NCBI GenBank assembly: GCA_902728285.1
Contig: CACVBU010000017.1
Location: 636,420 to 700,419, forward strand
From: Clytia hemisphaerica
Lineage: Eukaryota; Cnidaria; Hydrozoa; Leptothecata; Clytiidae
Length of the DNA: 64,000 bases
Direction: 5' to 3'
Shown here: positions 56-58,800 of the stretch, one piece after another
Numbering within the stretch: the stretch's first letter is position 1
How the letters are laid out: each line of letters begins with the position of its first letter
Position numbers and translations under genes: made by a program
Notes under the pieces: generated by a model
The model's database searches: none
Told to the model about the DNA's origin: nothing
Seen by the model: only the letters and a program-made list of their open reading frames with translations

Positions 56-2682
56 CTGTTATGAGGTGAATAATTGCACTTGAGGTCACAAGAGTCAGCT
101 CTTATTCGATTTTTGGTAAAAGCACTTGTTTCCAAACGTTGAGGAACAAATTTAGCTTGACTTCCAGTGAAACCATATCGACATAAACAAACCATGTTGG
201 AATCTCGTAAATCCAGATTGGTGATACAAAATCCATTTTCACCGCATTGTGAACAGACAACACATTCCAAACCAAGTCTCTTGCACGGCTCTGGGTCTGT
301 AAAATATACGAAAAATTACATACACAAAAAACGAAAAAGAAAAAAGGCCGCTTGTTCGACTCTGGGGAAATACAGGAGAAAAATCACGAGCTAATTCTGA
401 CAGATGATTTTGATATTTTCACTTCGATATTTGATATTGATTATTTTTCCCAAAAATCAAAGCCCGCGGTTTTTGACATCTTTAAATTGTTACAAGCATT
501 GTTTTAAAAGACCTAATTTGATTCAGCCTATCGAAAATTACTGCCCTCCTTAAAATCAAACTTAATCAAAAAGATTTTCTGCTGTTCAATGTGTGATTTC
601 AAGAAAGAGATTTTGGCGAATGATTGCTCATTTAATTTTCCAGGATTTATTTGGGCGCTTCAAGAATATTTTTGAATTTAGCGGGAGAAAATTTTGTAAT
701 TTGATCTGTCATTTTCTTCTTGAATATCATAAGAATTATACGCAAAAGAGCATTTTAAGAAGAATGAAGAAATGAACAAAAGTGAATGGAATGTTGCGAG
801 AATTTATTTAGGAAAGTGGCAAAAATGTTTAATTTAAGGCCAATTCCCAACTTTATCAACAATTATTCCCTTTAGCTATTCCATGTGAACTCGATGAATA
901 TGATGACCAAAAAAATTGACTTACTACTCGAGGATGTCGGATTGGTTGTCGTGGGTACGGTTGACGATTTTTGAGTGGTTTTTGGTGCAGTGGTTGTGGG
1001 TGGGTGGGTTGGCGGTGCAGTGGTTGTGGGTGGGTGGGTTGGTGTTGCAGTGGTTGTGGTGGTTGTAGGTGGGTGGGTTGGTGGTGCAGTGGTTGTGGAT
1101 GGGTAGCTTGGTGGTGCAGTTGGTGGTTGTGGTGGTGGGTGGGTAGCTGGTAACGGAACCCTGGCTCACACATTCGTTGTTTCTAGAGAGTTTGAAAGAT
1201 ACAAGATTATGACAAAGAAGTCTGAAAATATCTGTTAAACATGATACCAGATATACTCTCGATTTTCAGCAGTTAAAGAGTGTTGGAAAAATTTACACAT
1301 CAATAACAAGATATTGGACGAACAAAAATACCAGAGACTAAATAAATACCTGTTATGAGGCGAGTAATCACATTTGAGTTCACAAGAATCAGCTCTTATT
1401 CGATTTTTGGTAAAAGTACTTGTTTCCAAACGTTGAGGAACAAATTTAGCTTGACTTCCAGTGAAACCATATCGACATAAACAAACCATGTTGGAATTTC
1501 GTAAATCGAGATTGGTGATACAAAATCCATTTTCACCGCATTGTGAACATGCAACACATTCCAAACCAAGTCGCTTACAAGGTTCTGGGTCTGTGAAATA
1601 TACAGGAAAATTTACATACACAGAAAACGAAAAAAAATAAAGAAAAGCCGCTTGTTTGAATCTGTAAAATACAAGAGAAAAATCAGAAGTTAATTCTGAC
1701 AACTTAATCCAAGCCTGCGGTTTTGAAATATCTTCAAAAATATTTTTAAATTTGGTGGGAGAAAATTTTGTAATTTGATCTGTCATTTTCTTCTTAAATA
1801 TTATCAGAATTATACGCAAAAGAGCATTTTAAGAAGAATGAAGAAATGAACAAAGGAGAATGGAATGTTGCGAGAATTTATTTTGAAATTACAAAAATAT
1901 TTAATTTAAGGCCAAGTCAAAAATTCAACTCGATGAATATGGCCAAAAAAATTTGACTTACTACTCGAGAATATCGGATTGATTGTCGTGGGTGGGTGGC
2001 TTGGTGAAATAGTAGTTGTGGTGGTTGTGGGTGGGTAGCTTGGTGGAATAGTAGTTGTGGTGGTTGTGGGTGGGTAGCTTGGTGGAATAGTAGTTGTGGT
2101 GGTTGTGGGTGGGTGGGTTGATGGTGCAGTGGTTGTGGTGGTTGTGGGTGGGTAGCTTGGTGGAATAGTAGTTGTGGTGGTTGTGGGTGGGTGGGTTGAT
2201 GGTGCAGTGGTTGTGGTGGTTGTGGGTGGGTGGCTTGGTGGTGCAGTGGTTGTAACGGAACCCTGGCTCACACATTCCTTGTTTCTAGAGAGTTTGAAAA
2301 ATACAAGGTCATGACAAAGAAAATATCCATTAAACATGATACTAGATGTACTCTCGATTTTTAGCAGCTAAAGAGTGTTGGTAAAAATTTACACATCGAC
2401 AACAAGATATTGAAGGAACAAAAACACGAGAGACTAGATACCTGTTATAGGGCGAATAATTGCATTTGAGGTCACAAGAATCAGCTCTTATTCGATTTTT
2501 GGTAAAAGTACTTGTTTCCAAACGTTGAGGAACAAATTTAGCTTGACTTCCAGTGAAACCATATCGACATAAACAAACCATGTTGGAATTTCGTAAATCG
2601 AGATTGGTGATACAAAATCCATTTTCACCGCATTGTGAACAGACAACACATTCCAAACCAAGTCGCTTGCAAGGTTCTGGGT
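56..2682 (-). repeat. Tandem segmental duplication of exon pairs and introns
   Basis: The Cys-domain exons at 56-296, 1350-1590 and 2442-2682 are near-identical, all 241 nt. Their flanking introns are also repeated: about 297-420 matches 1591-1700, 660-850 matches 1735-1925, and 1235-1340 matches 2335-2440. Spacing is about 1.29 kb then 1.09 kb. Shared introns indicate recent duplication of whole genomic blocks rather than exon shuffling. Confidence 0.85.
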
Positions 2683-34362: not shown

Positions 34363-37300
34363 TTACCGGTGATATTCAATAAAACGGCAACCACAGAAAG
34401 GACACACATCAATGTTTAGCAAAATACTTTCTACATCCAGTTTGCCACTTAAACATTTACTTAAAACTTTCCGATCACAACCGATGCATACACGGTAGGT
34501 TTTTAACTTACACGCACGTAACGTAAGTGCGCATCGTACGTATTTATGTCCATTTCTGCATTTCTCTTGTTGTACGCCCGTAAGACAAATATCAGCCCCA
34601 CAATACGGACAATGCTCGCGGAACTGTTCCCATAGGTTCTGTTGCAAAGTCGACTCGACAGAAAGTTCGGTATTTATCAAATGTGAAGTTTCATAGTTTT
34701 TATCTAATATCTCGTTAGCTTTGCTAGACGTTTCGCTACCAGGGACGTCTTTCGATTGATGTAATGTTTCTTGCTCATCAAGTGATGACACTGCATTCTT
34801 GCCACGAGTCACATCCTCGTCGCTATGGATATTGGATACCATTTCCGAACACTCGTCATCTTTGAATGCTATGAAAGCTCTTTTAGCGAGGTCTCTACCT
34901 TCATCTGTCGTGTCGTATCGCAAAATGAAGTCGCAAATCAGACGGAGTGATAACGATCCTGGTAAGAATAGAAAAGACAAAGTAATTGATATATTAAAGA
35001 ATGAAATATATCATGAAATAAGCCGAAAAAACATCACTATCCCATTAAGCTGTTTTTCTCAACTCTGTATAGAGGGCTAAATTTTTCCATATAAGCTCGG
35101 GAATTAAGAGATAAAGGACTAGAGAAAAGTTTTTAAATTTTGAATTGCTATTTAAAATCCATTCTCTTTGATTGCACAATGATTTTAATTTTCTCTGCCT
35201 TTTCCAACCAATGCTTTAAATGTATTAAACTATATAATACCGTTGAAAAGATATTTCAGAGAGCAGTGAAAGCAAAAAATAAGGTTTTTAGACTCTAATG
35301 AGCTATTTCAAGAGGCTACAAACTTCTTTGCAAGAAATTTGCGGTTTATCCGAAATCAAGAGGTTCCAAAGAACCTATACCAAAAATGAAGTACAAGTAA
35401 ATCGTAAAAAATTCATTTTTTCACTTCATTCTTCATTTTCTAAAATTTGAATTATTTTTCTTAAAAATCAAATCGCTCTGAATTATCTTTTAAACGGTAT
35501 ATAAAATGCTAGAATTGAAGCATCGGCTTAAAAATGACAAGCACGTTTAAAGTGAATGGTATATGTATATGGTATATATAATATTTTTTCAATCAGTTTA
35601 TCCCCTTTGCCATTAAAAGCTAGACATGTTTTTTTTCTATAAGCAAAACGTTTATAAGCATACGCAGGCTCAGTTTTTGGTACCTGAACAATGGCTCTAT
35701 TGTTTATGAACGATAGAATACTAAGCATAATGCAAACCTGATATAGGAGTAGACACGTGCTTATAAAAAAAACATTTAGTCAAAAGCTGTGCAGTGCTTT
35801 TATATACACGCACTTCTTTCGAGGGACGTCCCTCATTAGACGCACACGTCTTTCGAACGCACAAGTCTTTCTGAGGCACACGTCTTTCGATCAAGGGACG
35901 GACGGCGCTTTCATGTGTATGGAAACCCCAACTGATTGTAAGACAATTGTTAGGGTTGCAAGATAAGAAAAAACAACAAAAACAAAGAAAAATAGAGGTA
36001 GTACCTTCATCTGTGAGGACAAGCCATTCATTTTCATGCAATTGAAGAAATTTACACAACATTTCTTTGAAGAATTGGATTTCAATGGCTTTGTTGATTT
36101 TTTTGATGACTTCATCTTCAATTTTATTGACGTTTGATGTCCATGTTTTCTTCACTTCCTCGTTTGTTAAAGCGTTTGCTCTGAAACGAAAATCCCATTC
36201 TTTGGTCTATGCTTTGAAAGTCTAGAAAGCGTTCGCTCTGAAACGAAAATCCCATTCTTTGGTCTGTGCTTTGAAAGTCTAGAAAGCGTTCGCTCTGAAA
36301 TGAAAACCCATTCTTTGGTCTATGCTTTGAAAGTCTAGAAAGCGTTCGCTCTGAAATGAAAACCCATTCTTTGGTCTATGCTTTGAAAGTCTAGAAAGCG
36401 TTCGCTCTGAAATGAAAACCCATTCTTTGGTCTATGCTTTGAAAGTCTAGAAAGCGTTCGCTCTGAAACGAAAATCCTATTCTTTGGTCTATGCTTTGAA
36501 AGTCTAGAAAGTGTTCGCTCTGAAACGAAAATCCCATTTTTTGGTCTATGCTTTGAAAGTCTAGAAAGCGTTTGCTCTGAAATGAAAATCCCATTCTCTG
36601 TCTATGCTTTGAAAGTCTAGAAAGCGTTCGCTCTGAAACGAAAACCCCATTCTTTGGTCTATGCTCTGAAATAAAAATCCCATTCTTTGTCTATGCTTTG
36701 AAAGTCTAGAAAGCGTTCGCTCTGAAACGAAAATCCCATTCTTTGGTCTATGCTCTGAAATAAAAATCCCATTCTTTGTCTATGCTTTAAAAGTCTAGAA
36801 AGCGTTCACTCTGAAACGAAAACCCATTCTTTGGTCTATGCTTTGAAAGTCTAGAAAGCGTTCGCTCTGAAATGAAAACCCATTCTTTGGTCTATGCTTT
36901 GAAAGTCTAGAAAGCGTTCGCTCTGAAACGAAAATCCTATTCTTTGGTCTATGCTTTGAAAGTCTAGAAAGTGTTCGCTCTGAAACGAAAATCCCATTTT
37001 TTGGTCTATGCTTTGAAAGTCTAGAAAGCGTTTGCTCTGAAATGAAAATCCCATTCTCTGTCTATGCTTTGAAAGTCTAGAAAGCGTTCGCTCTGAAACG
37101 AAAACCCCATTCTTTGGTCTATGCTCTGAAATAAAAATCCCATTCTTTGTCTATGCTTTGAAAGTCTAGAAAGCGTTCGCTCTGAAACGAAAATCCCATT
37201 CTTTGGTCTATGCTCTGAAATAAAAATCCCATTCTTTGTCTATGCTTTAAAAGTCTAGAAAGCGTTCGCTCTGAAATGAAAACCCATTCTTTGGTCTATG

Positions 37301-40300
37301 CTTTGAAAGTCTAGAAAGCGTTCGCTCTGAAACGAAAATCCCATTCTTTGTCTATGCTTTAAAAGTCTAGAAAGCGTTCGCTCTGAAACGAAAATCCCAT
37401 TCTTTGTCTATGCTTTGAAAGTCTAGAAAGCGTTCACTCTGAAATGAAAACCCCATTCTTTGATCTATGCTTTGAAAGTCTAGAAAGCGTTCACTCTGAA
37501 ATGAAAATCCCATTCTTTGGTCTATGCTTTGAAAGTCTAGAAAGCGTTCGCTCTGAAACGAAAAACCCATTCTTTGGTCTATGCTTTGAAAGTCTAGAAA
37601 ACGTTCGCTCTGAAACGAAAATCCTATTCTTTGGTCTATGCTTTGAAAGTCTAGAAAGCGTTTGCTCTGAAATGAAAATCCCATTCGTTGGTCTATGCTT
37701 TGAGAAAGTCTGGAAAGCGTTCGCTCTGAAATGAAAATCCCATTCTTTGGTCTATGCTTTGAAAGTCTAAAAAGCGTTCGCTCTGAAATGAAAATCCGAT
37801 TCTTTGGTCTTTCTTTTGAAAGTCTAGAAAGCGTTCACTCTGAAATGAAACACCAGGTAAAGAATAGTAATTTTAGATTACCCACACTGCATTGCTTTAG
37901 CAGCTACTGACCTCATTCCAGTAGTTTGCATGTATCGCACTCGATTGAAATAAAGATAAATCTGCAGCTTTCGAGTGGATAGATCGTATGACTCTGGTGC
38001 TTCACAAAACGGATGTAAAACGTTTGGTAGGATGAAATTCTCCGCCGTTGAAATGAGAAAATATTCGCACACAATAATGTCCATGTCAATTTCTTCGTTT
38101 AGGAGAAGCTGTGCAATGTCTTCAGTGCTTAAGAACGGTAAAAAACAGACCTGGAAAATGGGGAGAGAAATGTCAAGGATAAAATGTAAAGCATTTCTCT
38201 CTGGAGAGTTTAATATAGAGGTATACATTGTGTCGCAAAAAGAAGGGGCAAGGTAAAATAAAATCCTCAAAACTCATTATAACTGGGCTTACAATACCTT
38301 ATTAAGGGAAGAAATTTTCGCGAGAAGAAATTTTCGCGGAATTTAATTTCGCGAATCAGAGTTTCAAAATGGCAAATTCCCCGGAATTTAATTTCACGAA
38401 TGAGCCGATTTCAAAAGTTTCACGGAATTTAATTTCGCGATTGAGAAGAAGTTATCAACTTAGATTAACTTTTAAGCATCACGGAGTTGTTTATATTTGT
38501 TTATATTTGATAAAAAATACACGTTATAATGCTTAAAAATCAATTGTGTCCATCCCTTTTGGTAATACCTGGTCAAAAACAACAAAATAAAAGAAGAAGA
38601 AAAAAAATCGAATTTCGCGGAATTTAATTTCGCGAATTACGCCCAAATTCACGAAATTAAATTCCGCGAAAATTTCTTCCCTTAAGGTAATTGAAATTAA
38701 AATTCTAAAATTAAAATTCTCTGTTCGATCAAAACTGAATAGGTTTTGGAGAAATATAAAGGCTTAATAAGGGCTGGCGTAAGGAATCGGTATTAAAATT
38801 GGAGTTGGGCTGAATTTGAAAAAGAGCTTTGGCGTTATAAGGGCCGATAAGGTATTGAATTAGGTCTAAATTTAATTTAATCCTGAATTAGTCGTCTATG
38901 GCAAGGTCTTCACTAACCATACTGGGGATATTGATTTTCAAGGATATTTGAGTTTTTATGATATAGAAATGAAGCGCTGACAATACGAGATAATTTGTTC
39001 GTTTATGTTTAAAAATACTGGGTAATCAAATGGAAGGATATAATATAATCATATCCTTTAATCATAGGCGATAAATCGCATATCGATGAACAAATAATAT
39101 GTACCTCCATTTGTTTGACGAAAGAGGATTGAAGAAGCAATAGCCTTGAAGGGCAAGACACACGAACGAACATACACAGTGATGGATCAGCGGCTAAACC
39201 ACAACACCGGAATCCTCTTAATATGTTGCTATCACAAAATGGGTTGATCTCATCCTCTGCAACAAAAGAGAATGCACAGTATGAAAACGTTGTTGTGTAT
39301 ACAATTAGATATTATATTATGATATTAATGATAATTGAAAACCTATTGAAAATCATTTCCATTTAAAAAACGATCAATTTTCTGTTCGACATTTTTCATT
39401 TTCGTGGGTCGTCCGGTATCTTATAAAAACCTGGATTCCAAATCTCTACATCCCTGAAGAAAGTAAAACTTTGAGAAAACACTCTTGATTGTAATAAAAA
39501 CAAAAACATACCAATATCAACATACTGAGTAGCACCATGGCTTGCAGTCACAATGAACCTGTCTTTGACAGTTTGCAAGGAGACAATGGGAGAACTGTGG
39601 CATGTTGGTGCTTGCTCACACGATACTGATCGCAGAGGTTCGATGGAGAGTTCACGGAATATCAGTATCTCTGTTCCTTTGATCGCAATTAAATTCAAAC
39701 GACCAAGCTAAAAGTAACAAAAGAATAAAAATCTTTATTCTCTTCTTCGCCAGTTATATTTGTATGTCCGAAAAACCACAAGAGATGGAATCAGATAGGA
39801 ATGGATACTCTTTCACGCTTTTACTTTTTATTTACACGAATATTTTTAACCTAATGATGCCATTTTTACAGTTTTTGTACCTGCATACCGCCAACTCTCC
39901 CAAATATTAATCAATACTTTCACAAAAATGTCAAAACTTTTTACTTTTACATTTAAATGCATTACATGAATTCCGAACGAAGAAGCCATTGTATATGAAT
40001 ATATTTTTCAAACGATTTTCATTTAGCTGATGATTGTCTCGATGTGGGCGGCACGAAACTTAAAGTTCTAAACAATAAATCAAAGTCTCTTTCTTTCAAT
40101 TTGCTATGCATTACATGTTAAATTCAAGTTGAACAGTAACCCTAACATTTTTCCAAAAAGAAATTGATCAACCAAATGAAGTAAATTTTTCTCTATACAA
40201 ATTTGATATAAATTTGATATAAATTAAGTTTTTTCCGGACCTGCTTTCTAAAAAGTTTTTTGTATCTTCGTATTCAAATTCGGTTAATACTAATTCATCT

Positions 40301-52800: not shown

Positions 52801-55800
52801 CGCAGGACACAGGTCATACAAACTACAGACCGGAAAATTGTAACACACTTGTAACGTAACATATAGAAAATACACTATTTTAGAAGATTTTAACAACAAA
52901 CCATAAATGCCAAACGATTGACTGTTTTAGAGATATGAAAAAAGTGACGTCGTTTTCATCAAAATTACAAGGCAGGGGATAAAAATATTGATATAGTTAT
53001 GAAATATAAACCTTTGATGCCACTTTAATCAATTTTTGTTATCATACCCAAGGTGATGCAGGAGATATAATGAGATATGATATAGCGATTGTGAAATAGC
53101 TTTTTTCCTGCCAGGAGGCTGTTTAAAGATGAGATAAATATATATAACACATGTACTTTTGATATAACATATGTAACATACCAATGACATTGAAAAGATA
53201 ACTTCTATTATACATGATTATGTGTAATGTATGATATAAGTATTACAGGTCCATGTTATACACGGCACAGAATGCAAACACACGTGGTAGGCACGTGGAT
53301 AGATTTTGTTCTTTAACTTTAAAAAGGTTTCAGATCAATAAAATACCTTCAGAATGGTATTTCTAACGATTGCGATTGTTTTTCAAATATTTTCTTTGTT
53401 TTTTACATCAATTAAAGCTGACCTGTCAGCACTGACCTGCGTCTTGTCTTATGCGTCCTGTCTCCTGCATTTTGAACCAACCGGGATAAATTCAGTAGCA
53501 CCTTGATAGGCAGTCTATGCTTAAACTCCTATATCAACATTACAGGATTCGAAGTGCGGGCCGATTTCACTTTCATTTTCAGTAGTTTCACTTTCGATTT
53601 CAAGCCAACATCTTAGCAAACGGGATGCTTGCCCATAGTTGCAGGGGTTTGTGCAAAAAATCAAACATAGAAAGATTTCCAAATGCAAATCCCCTATTTT
53701 CATTGAACCAATAAAAAATAAAACTTTTCCATGTTTCACTTTTTTGCACCAATTCTTTAAAATGAAAATATTTAAGATTTATTTAAGAAAAAATTAAGTT
53801 CCAATGGAAATTTGGAAAGGTTTGATCTGCGAAATATTTTGAAACAAAACTAAAAATTGTCAAATAAACTACTTTTTAAATGTTTACTGGCACTGGCATC
53901 AAAGGATATTTCAACAACCAACGTGCATGATTTGGCAGTAAAAGTCACAAATTTATGAAAATATTGTCTCCCAATAGTGCCATCAGGCTCGGGTGGAAAA
54001 CAGTACTTCTCAGTGAATTAAAACTTTGAACACTTTTTCTGAAATGTTGAAACCTTATTTATATAAAGATAATTATTTGGTTTTCCTTTCAGGTTGTTTA
54101 CTGTAGTCAACTGAAGAAATTCAACGAGTTTGTACTCAGTAAAATGTTAAGCAATCGAAAGTTTGGCATTCGCTTTGAAACGGCATTTGTTCGTAAAAGA
54201 TTTGACGCACTATTGGATTATGTGTGTATCGAATGTGGCGAAGGACCTTTAGGCTCCATGCAAGACTTGAAAAGCCATATCCGCAAAGAACACGAGAAAC
54301 AATTCTGTTTGATTTGTATCAAGAACGTGGTACTGTTCCCATCTGAACGCAAACTGTATAATAAGAAAGAACTTGTCAGACATCGCAAGGATGGAGATGC
54401 AGACGAAAAGTCACATAGAGGTTCGTTAAGCCTAAATCCTTCTCATCAAATCTCTGTTGAAAGTTCATTCGTTCATAGAAGACTTTCCGACTGAGGAACG
54501 TGTAAAATGAGGCACTTAAGAGTCCAAATTGAGCCTGTGGCAAATTGGCAAAGTGCCTGCTCCATCAGGTGGAAGTCTATTTGACGGAAGTTATAAAATG
54601 TAAACAAACCAGGACACCCTATCCATTATACAATATTTATCCACAAACCATTTTTTTTTGCTTTGAAAAAACTGTTTTGATCACAATTTTTATTTACAGG
54701 CCATCCTGAATGTCGTTTCTGTGATGAAAGGTACTTCGATAACGATGCACTTCTCCTTCACCTTCGAAAAAGTCATTTCTGGTGTCATTTCTGTGAACAC
54801 GATGGAAAGCAAGATTATTATGATGTTTATGAGAGCTTGCGAAGACATTTTGCTGACCAACATTTCTTGTGTGATGAAGGTACACGCTTTTCTTTTTATA
54901 ACAATAGTGTACTTTGGATGAGGGTCAAGTATTCTTAAGAAATTGCCAAAAATGAGAGTGAAATATTCTTAACGTATTCTTACTTTTTTAGACTTTTTTA
55001 GACTTTTTACAAACATGAGAAATGATTTTTGGACTTTTAAATGAACTTTTGGAACTTACATTTCTGTCTCAAAGTTTAAACAGGTTTAAATTCAAGTCTA
55101 ACAAAGGAAGCAGTTTTTTTCTGTTAGCCAAATACGAAATGACTAGAGGCTATTCTAAGGGTATTCTTACGATCTAGCCAATTTTCACCCTGATATTCTT
55201 ATAGAAGATATTCTTATAAAAAAAAAGCTTACATGGGGAAAACATTTTCATGGGTTGTTTAATTTTGATGAATCTCATTCACCAATAGACCTTATCGGAG
55301 TTTTTGATTTTTCTAAAAATACGATACATTGTGGCATTGTTTCGAGTGTATTACAATAGAATTCCCTGGATGAATTCCTAAGAGATTTCTATTGTAATAC
55401 CTTAAGGGAAGAAATTTTCGCGAGAAGAAATTTTCGCGGAATTTAATTTCGCGAATCAGAGTTTCAAAATGGCAAATTCCGTGGAATTTAATTTCGCAAA
55501 TGAGCCAATTTCAAAAGTTTCACGGAATTTAATTTCGCGATTGAGAAGAAGTTATCAACTTAGATTAACTTTTAAGCATCACGGAGTTGTTTATATTTGT
55601 TTATATTTGATAAAAAATACACATTATAATGCTTAAAAATCAATTGTGTCCATCTTTTTTGGTAACACCTGGTCAAAAACAACAAAATAAAAAAAGAGGA
55701 AAAAAAATCGAATTTCGCGGAATTTAATTTCGCGATTTAACAATTTTGGTGTGTTTCGCGGAATTTAATTTCGCGAATTACGCCCCAATTCGCGAAAATT

Positions 55801-58800
55801 TCTTCCGCGAAAATTTCTTCCGCGAAAATTTCTTCCCTTAAGGTACACTCGAAACAATCCCACAATGCATCGCTTTTTTTAGAAAAATCAAAAACTCTGA
55901 TAAGGTCTGTACATCGGGATGATGAGATGGAACTTTTACAAGATACTTCACTAATTGGTATGAAGTAATAAAAATGACTCGTTCTTTAGAAAAAGTAACG
56001 TGTTATTACATGTTAACCAAACCAAATCAAACGAGAGTTTCTTGTAAAAACTCCAACTTGTACCAATACAACAATGCCTGCTTTTAATCCTTATTTATGT
56101 AGCTAAGTGTAGAGGGAAGATTCAATGACGCTCTGTTTTTCGATATTTGGGCGCCCCTCGAAGATTACTTTTTGTGCTTTCATTGTCAAATCGCTACTGA
56201 ATTTTAATAAAACTTGCTTGCTTTTAAACTTATTCATGTAGCTAACTGTAGATGGAAGATTCAAAAAAGTGAAAGAGATTCTAGAGAAAACAGAAGAAGA
56301 TAAAAATGAAGATTGAAAATACTTTACGTATTCATTCATCCAACATTGTAAAAATTTCTCTATCACGAACAATGACATAGATTTTGTTTTTTATCCTGAC
56401 CTTTTCACTATTATAGATGCATGCGCGAATGAGAAATTCACATCAGTGTTTCGTGACAAGATCGATTTTCAAGCGCACAAACTAGCCGCTCACCGCAAGA
56501 AACTGAATAAATATCAGGCTAAAAATGCCCGTAAAGTGGATATCGACTATAAGTAAGTCTCCAGCTTGAACATTTTTTATTGTATTTTCAAAGAAAGAAA
56601 GAAATTTCCCTGTAAACCAAATCACTCATTTAAAAACCTATCCCAACTTTTTTCTGTTACATTTATGACTTGATGCCAAACCTTTTTGTCCCTTGCTTTC
56701 AGTTCATCATTTTTCAGTGGTTCTATCTGTGCATGAAGCAAAATGATTGAATTTCTTTTTAAAATTTATAATCACTATTCTTTTTAGTTTTGGAGGGCGT
56801 TCATCAGGTGCCTCGGCATCTGGGGGCGGTGGGAGTACAATCACAGGGGCGGATTATGAAGACGTTAGACAGAGCGGTGAAAACAGGGGAGCCTCTGGTA
56901 AGTCAATAATAGCATTTAAGCGTTATTTACTGTACTTTAAAGCTTCAAAAAATAAACGCTTTTGAAAAAAGTGTGTAGAGTACACAGGGCGGGATGAATG
57001 ATTATCTGGCACCCAAATGCAGAAATTTTCATCCGACACGCTAAAGCTCTGAAGGTCGGGAAAATTTTCAACATCTGGAAGGTTTAGATATTACAGAATT
57101 TTTCAAGACCGCGTCAAGGATTTTTCAGTGGAAGGCTCGGTAACCCAGCCCTTGTCTTCGGAGATAAGTGGGTCCAACTGAAATAGTTTTAGGTTTACAC
57201 GAAAGGGTAGTTGAACCCGACTGGAAATGTGGCAGATCAAAGGCCGACCCTCTCCGATTGGAAATTGACCCTTTAGAGCTTTATCGTGGGTGTTTGCCAA
57301 CCCGCCGTCGGACTATCAGATAAGATAAATGATGTCTTGGATTTTTAGGAGGACGTTCGGCCGGTCGTTCAAACAACAACAACCATCGCTACCATCGCGA
57401 GAAGAACGGCACGTTGAATTTCTATGATTACGAAGATGTAGAGAAGGATCGGAAAAAGTTTTTGGGGAAAGCACGAAGACATGAAGCGGAGGAAGTCACC
57501 GATAACAATGAAAGGTACTTTGGCTTGGCTCTTCTTTGAGAGATTCAATCAGTAGAACCAGGGGGTCGGTAAAATCCCAGACATCATGTCATTTAGTGGT
57601 GGTGGTATACCATATTTTTAGTCCTTTTTGTGTCACCAAAAAGGTGGTATCCAGACAAAAGTTTTTGAAATTATTTAATGCATTCAGTCAAACCTCTCTC
57701 TTACCCTTGCCCTTACCCTTATTGCCATGGTGATTTTAACTCTCAGTGGATTTTATTAAAACTACCGGGTGACCCACGAAAAAGTTCGGACCTTTCTCGG
57801 CGTCTTGAGGCCGAACAAATGTCCCAAAGTGCTCGGAATATTGGTATTTAAAAAGTAGATATCCTAACTTAAAATTTGAGCTATCACTTTTTAAATTTGA
57901 CCAACTAGTTCTCTACTTATGACCTTTTAAACTCAAAATTCACTTTTCGGAAAGTGTAAAAAACACGTAAAAAAGAGGTATTAAATTAATGCAATCAATT
58001 AGAAAATCTCTTATAAATTGACTTATTTAACGAGTTTTATGACATTAATAATTATTAAAAACACCCTTTTAAAGTAGTTTTTGTTAAACCAAGACTAGTT
58101 TTTATCAAAATTGGCACTTTCAAGGACTTTTCTCAAAAAACTGTATATCAAAAACGTCTAAAAATACCTAATTTGATACCCCTTTTTTACCTGTTTTTTA
58201 CACTTTCCGAAAAGTGAATTTTGAGTTTAAAAGCTCATAACTAGGGAACTTGTGCGTCAAATTTAAAAAGTAATGGCTCGGATTTTAAGTTAGGATATCT
58301 ACTTTCTAAATAATAAAACTCCAAGCACTTTGGGACATTTGTTCGGCCTCAAGACGCCGAGAAACGTCCGAACTTTTTCGTGGGTCACCCGGTACTTTCT
58401 ATTCATAAAAAAATCATTTAAAAATGTCTCAAGGGAGTTAATCACCATGGTAATTGTTTGAATACGAGGCAAGTGATGTTTGTGACGTAATTTATGAAAC
58501 GGTCTATTATATTTGAAAATTTTGAAAAAGTTGAATTTCTGATTTTCCCAAAAGTTTTCATCAAAATGTAATTTTATTGCATAGTATGTGGCAAACGGCT
58601 AGGGCTCTTTTCAAGATTTACCATTTGTCTACTCGCAGAATCACCATTTATTGTTTGAGTCTCATTTCACACTGTCCTTCTTTCACAGGGCAAAGGTCGG
58701 TCGTCGCATGGCTGCAACGCGTTCACTCAGTCAATCTGAACCGGATATCCCTTCAAACTATAACAACCAAAACATCACGCTTGATGATGACGTCATTGGA

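Follow-up and report, generated by a model that had tools for sequence, protein, structure and literature searches.

We analyzed a 64,000-nt stretch of the Clytia hemisphaerica genome (hereafter the window; G000:C12:636420-700419), the minus strand of which carries a GTF3C4-like gene. One intron of this gene (37911-36181, minus strand) is built from copies of its own 3' splice site. The original prediction had put their number at about 30, and we count 31 decoys in addition to the real acceptor. The array is probably an acceptor-type 'mirage', a minisatellite that arose when an exon/intron boundary was duplicated in tandem and that later grew on its intron side through slippage or unequal exchange.

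Architecture of the array-bearing intron

The intron is 1,731 nt long and reads GTCAGT...TTTCAG. Tandem Repeats Finder (TRF) reports a single array in it, spanning positions 36169-37850 with a period of 57 and 29.4 copies, which bears out the earlier description of a 57-bp minisatellite filling the intron; the array extends 12 nt into the downstream exon. The motif [AG]TTTCAG occurs 32 times in the intron, in the 31 decoys and in the real acceptor, which ends at 36181, and its density in the remaining window is 0.42 per 1,731 nt per strand. Cut at the acceptor, the intron resolves on the minus strand into a 72-nt piece that starts at the donor and reaches the leftmost acceptor copy (37840..37911), the first 61 nt of which are unrelated to the unit, followed by 31 tandem units (36181..37839). 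Fourteen units are 56 nt long, twelve are 57 nt, one is 59 nt and four are 33 nt. All 31 have [AG]TTTCAG at their end, and that of the last unit is the real acceptor. The units also share the 12 nt with which the downstream exon begins (36169..36180, minus strand).

The sequence AGCGAACGCTTT stands directly after 17 of the 31 decoy acceptors in exact form and after 27 of them with at most one mismatch; the four 33-nt units do not have it. When the decoys are compared with the 12-nt start of the real exon, AGCAAACGCTTT, three are identical and 20 of the 31 differ at no more than one position. On the intron side, the real acceptor has its last 14 nt in common with ten decoys, 23 nt with five, 30 nt with two and 40 nt with none.

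The full-length units have a mean pairwise identity of 0.93, and they are arranged in an ordered pattern. The longest exact repeat in the array is 450 bp (first copy 37267-36818, second copy 36807-36358, minus strand). An exact duplication of 460 bp had been predicted; the duplication is there, and 460 is the offset between its copies rather than its length. This repeat supports recent growth of the array, as also predicted, and the number of copies may vary. The sequence comes from a single assembly, and an exact repeat of 450 bp is difficult to assemble. Even so, it is extremely unlikely that the copies or their number are a product of misassembly, as the full-length units differ from one another and are arranged in an orderly manner. 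The copy number could be off, but the array itself could hardly have been invented.

The intron separates a 239-nt upstream coding exon (37912..38150, minus strand; 'exon 7' of the original prediction), which ends in ATGAG in phase 2, from a 176-nt downstream coding exon with a purine-rich start (36005..36180, minus strand; 'exon 8'). The reading frame is open across the 37912/36180 join of the two. The gene assignment comes from two exons that match zf-TFIIIC (PF12660, E 2.8e-13) and the TFIIIC delta propeller (PF12657, E 9.8e-8), the former being the last coding exon (34363..34958, minus strand). When the last three exons are joined, they align with human GTF3C4 (8cli_B) with an E-value of 9.7e-6, in the zinc-finger part only. 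A second possible donor, GTAATC, is located 30 nt downstream of the GTF3C4-like donor in the same phase and looks weaker by its sequence. We found no second copy of the GTF3C4-like exons in the 417-Mb assembly, and scanning the window against Rfam and for tRNAs gave zero matches in either case. A coding minisatellite was considered, and some reading frames are open in the array units. Cassette exons within the array were rejected, as it contains no GTRAG donor.

Origin of the array

Our searches for the unit covered the 417-Mb assembly and scored the best candidates only. Among these, the unit was present exclusively in its own array: all 26 matches to a 25-mer from the unit, at no more than three mismatches, fell inside the array (a reversed-pattern control gave one match), as did all 24 matches obtained in a DNA search with 111 bases of the unit. 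The array is most likely derived from the boundary of its host gene and, by the candidates scored, is neither a dispersed satellite nor a mobile minisatellite.

The two edges of the array carry the same 23-nt segment, which consists of 11 nt of the intron end and 12 nt of the exon start. Between the left and right edges the 11 intron nucleotides are identical, and the exon start is the same but for one base, apart from A/G changes. Because the sequence before the left copy is unlike the unit, the acceptor together with the exon start is the element common to both edges. The alignment score between the left 61 nt of the intron and the unit was reached by 224 of 500 shuffles. We therefore rejected a duplication of the whole old intron, as this left part is no closer to the unit than shuffled sequence. 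Since the unit is seen at no other locus and both edges hold the acceptor-plus-exon segment, growth from the acceptor is the most likely origin of the array, in line with the original prediction.

A minisatellite of another origin might instead have reached the exon from within the intron, so that the acceptor of one of its units replaced the original acceptor. The sequence of events would be directly visible only in comparison with a sister species, and 11 of the 23 nucleotides shared by the edges are intronic, which would suit such a capture. However, among the candidates scored the unit was found at this locus only, and its exonic portion is in-frame coding sequence within the real exon. 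Furthermore, captures would have to have happened repeatedly, as the same exon-plus-splice-site design is found at three other boundaries (see below), where the exon copies align with known proteins. We consider capture unlikely.

In the simplest case, growth from the acceptor could have proceeded as follows. The starting point would be an intron, possibly as short as about 72 nt, that ended in TTTCATTTCAG|AGCAAACGCTTT and of which the last 11 nt were duplicated together with the first 12 nt of the exon and with a 34-nt spacer. The resulting unit would then have been amplified to 31 copies, with one step of 460 bp having been duplicated recently, while the outermost copy, still attached to the exon body, was kept as the working acceptor. 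The 72 nt between the donor and the leftmost acceptor copy may represent the old intron.

Further splice-boundary arrays on the contig

TRF was also applied to 264 kb consisting of the window and the adjoining 200 kb (C12:436001-636000). Arrays with a period of at least 20, at least 2.4 copies and a score of at least 200 were counted after merging (n = 18), and all others were dropped before the count. Splice-boundary arrays occupy ranks 1, 2, 3 and 12 by score among these 18, the GTF3C4 array being third. Beyond GTF3C4, three boundaries within about 155 kb of the same contig carry such arrays, which brings the total to four boundaries in three genes. The sample adjoins the window and is non-random, and it yields no genome-wide rate.

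The top-ranking array (C12:613254-615122; L033:7254-9122) lies behind an ABC-transporter exon of an ABCC4-like gene and contains 19 ATTG|GTAAG donors in 99-bp units. Besides the real donor there are 18 decoys, and use of any of them leads to a stop after five codons (18/18). In 17 of the 18 units, the sequence between CAG and GTAAGT is a complete in-frame 36-nt cassette. Thirteen units read AIFVANVIARYI, three read AIFAPIVLARYI as in the exon, and one reads AIFVANVLARYI; the remaining one is 38 nt long. All 19 assembly matches of this donor unit, among the best candidates scored, fall within its own array. The acceptor end of the same intron carries the array of rank 12 (C12:615596-615855; L033:9596-9855), where the real acceptor is accompanied by two extra copies, of which one has lost its AG, so that there are three in all. 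The joined exons align across the junction with human ABCC4 (8bwo, E 8.7e-38).

The array of rank 2 (C12:519343-521119) is a donor array in a DIL-domain gene, where the last 17 exon nucleotides and GTTCC are repeated in 47-bp units. With the real donor counted, there are 34 donor-like sites; use of any of the 33 decoys leads to a stop 13 codons further on. The donor is a weak one (GTTCCC). The downstream exon encodes a DIL domain (PF01843, E 6.7e-18), and the Pfam match covers that exon only. The upstream exon alone had no match in the homology searches; joined to the downstream exon, it aligns across the junction with myosin Va (E 1.2e-7), and this PDB alignment alone crosses the junction.

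In both genes, then, known proteins can be aligned with the exon copies, whereas most of the ABCC4-like units are altered. This polarity supports a direction from exon to array and not the reverse. The process that duplicates boundaries appears to have acted also on other splice sites of the Clytia hemisphaerica genome, on donors as well as acceptors.

Choice of the acceptor and consequences of decoy use

Joining the upstream exon to a decoy produces a stop within five codons in 30 of the 31 cases, and with no decoy does the frame stay open to the end of exon 8. The predicted outcome of four codons followed by TAG applies to 26 decoys; it fails for the four decoys of the 33-nt units, where the stop comes after one codon, and for the decoy at 37726, which reads 78 codons. 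The real acceptor is expected to dominate over the decoys, and their occasional use would likely lead to truncated messages and decay.

What could distinguish the real site? An intron-side signal can hardly do so, because several decoys carry the same signal. The exon body and the donor behind the real acceptor are what differs, and exon definition is therefore the likely rule: judging from sequence features, the copy that wins is most likely the one beside the purine-rich exon body and its donor. The 50 nt after the real acceptor contain 35 purines, as compared to 26-28 after the decoys. In the GTF3C4, ABCC4-like and DIL-gene arrays alike, the putative real site lies outermost among the copies and is joined to the exon.

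Several observations weigh against this account of the intron and its acceptor. The homology across the GTF3C4 exon junction is not significant, with the first stretch of the 8cli alignment contributing -0.4 bits. Under intron definition, the leftmost decoy, which would create a 72-nt intron and is preceded by unique sequence, should be the favoured site. By predicted RNA accessibility, the real acceptor does not stand out from the decoys: accessibility is low at all 32 sites and the real one ranks 18th, so that masking of the decoys by RNA structure was rejected as well. Finally, TTTCAG is invariant in all copies, yet five of the 57 six-column windows of the unit are equally invariant. The conservation of this motif consequently speaks neither for nor against a function, and selection on it is unsupported.

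The last point bears on another possibility, namely that the decoys are a selected array that holds back or tunes splicing, with GTF3C4 output being set by unproductive splicing. The early stops after nearly all GTF3C4 decoys and after every decoy donor of the ABCC4-like and DIL genes are what such regulation would employ. However, each array has inherited its stop from one unit, so that the number of independent events is small, and other stretches of the unit are just as constant as the acceptor motif. As nearly all stops in the GTF3C4 array come from one inherited TAG, they are not good evidence of selection, and we regard functional decoys as very unlikely.

Remaining repeats and the mitochondrial contig

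Of the remaining 14 arrays in the 264 kb, seven were judged by eye, without a family search of their flanks, and five lay outside the inspection (window positions 1988-2241; C12:553330, 632468, 633669 and 634325). The array at C12:534039-535070 stands beside an RA-domain exon, but was rejected as a splice-boundary array and taken as an ordinary neighbour, as the acceptor lies about 40 nt outside it. A 26-bp array at C12:560050-560373 has units with TATTATAG|GGTG-like ends and stands beside an open frame. It is a possible acceptor-type array by its sequence; the open frame had no family match and offers no homology support for a splice boundary, and we excluded the array from the count. Two arrays of about 115-bp units (C12:503227-503983 and 504473-506041) have units and outer flanks that are, by eye, mutually reverse-complementary and form a large inverted repeat. 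Within the window, short GAAGAAATTTTCGCGA-type repeats recur at 38308-38338, 55408-55438 and 55791-55836, and similar CGCGAAATTAAATTCC stretches are found in an intron of the GTF3C4-like gene. The GAAGAAATTTTCGCGA-type repeats are probably a dispersed repeat.

For a hydroidolinan hydrozoan, the mitochondrial gene order given below and a second copy of cox1 would be expected. The genes on the mitochondrial contig C900 (14,551 bp) all point the same way, in the order cox2-atp6-cox3-nad2-nad5-nad6-nad3-nad4L-nad1-nad4-cob-cox1, where cox1 was named by a family search and the other genes by eye. Its cox1 runs to the contig end with a TGA inside the frame. A second cox1 copy was not found (one match in the assembly), and C900 is perhaps incomplete. 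Hydroidolinan hydrozoan mtDNA is described as linear; it has a boundary between cob and cox1 as well as the blocks atp8-atp6-cox3, nad2-nad5 and nad6-nad3-nad4L-nad1-nad4 (PMC4655093). C900 is thus of hydrozoan type and makes amphioxus an unlikely source.

Implications

With three more boundary arrays on the same contig and the mirages of amphioxus, the GTF3C4 array is not a one-off. We suggest tentatively, as a proposal that could well fail, that splice-boundary minisatellites are a common and continuing product of a mutational process in this hydrozoan lineage, which hits donors and acceptors of many genes and loads introns with dozens of near-perfect decoys. If so, the process could supply new exons and introns, as the 36-nt in-frame cassettes of the ABCC4-like units would suggest. 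The occurrence of four such boundaries in three genes within 264 kb, in an animal apparently distant from amphioxus, points to boundary duplication as a route to intron growth, and perhaps also to the gain of introns or exons, that is wider than the cases in amphioxus had indicated. Furthermore, several decoys have exactly the same acceptor signal as the real site and represent natural controls for splice-site choice, as the main remaining difference between them and the real acceptor is its position beside the exon body.

Comparison with known systems

Open-access PubMed Central literature on repeats and splice sites contained no cnidarian mirage among the matches listed, and the available text of PMC2206037 describes no array of this kind. 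Two other systems resemble the GTF3C4 array in part. According to PMC2812944, introns of human paralogs arose from internal tandem repeats; there, too, minisatellite expansion alters the exon/intron structure and can recruit cryptic splice sites. Those new introns are located inside exons, whereas in the GTF3C4 array the boundary of an existing intron was copied into that intron. The C. elegans CeRep25B minisatellites likewise reside in introns and are linked to alternative splicing (PMC4039745). However, they are a dispersed family of regulatory motifs, unlike the GTF3C4 units, which copy the splice site of their host intron.

The closest relatives are the mirages of amphioxus, which PMC3087553 and PMC3902484 describe as minisatellite-like tandem duplications of an exon/intron boundary in Adh3, the globin genes BflGb6 and BflGb9, TnC and PGBD5. 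They are reported there to be unstable in length and not to disturb splicing. Similar to the GTF3C4 array, the BflGb6 mirage repeats the 3' end of an intron together with the 5' part of an exon, and in the amphioxus mirages many copies keep their splice signals. Their units measure 10-160 bp, a range that includes the 57 bp found here. The differences are in copy number, as BflGb6 has 6 and 3 units in two haplotypes and the GTF3C4 array has 31 decoys, and in the host and the material: the GTF3C4 array belongs to another phylum and is known from the sequence of one assembly. Cephalochordate hosts are the range in which mirages have been reported so far, not part of their definition, and the host in the present case is a hydrozoan. 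The GTF3C4 array belongs to a known kind, the mirage, and, as far as our searches show, adds a new phylum to it.

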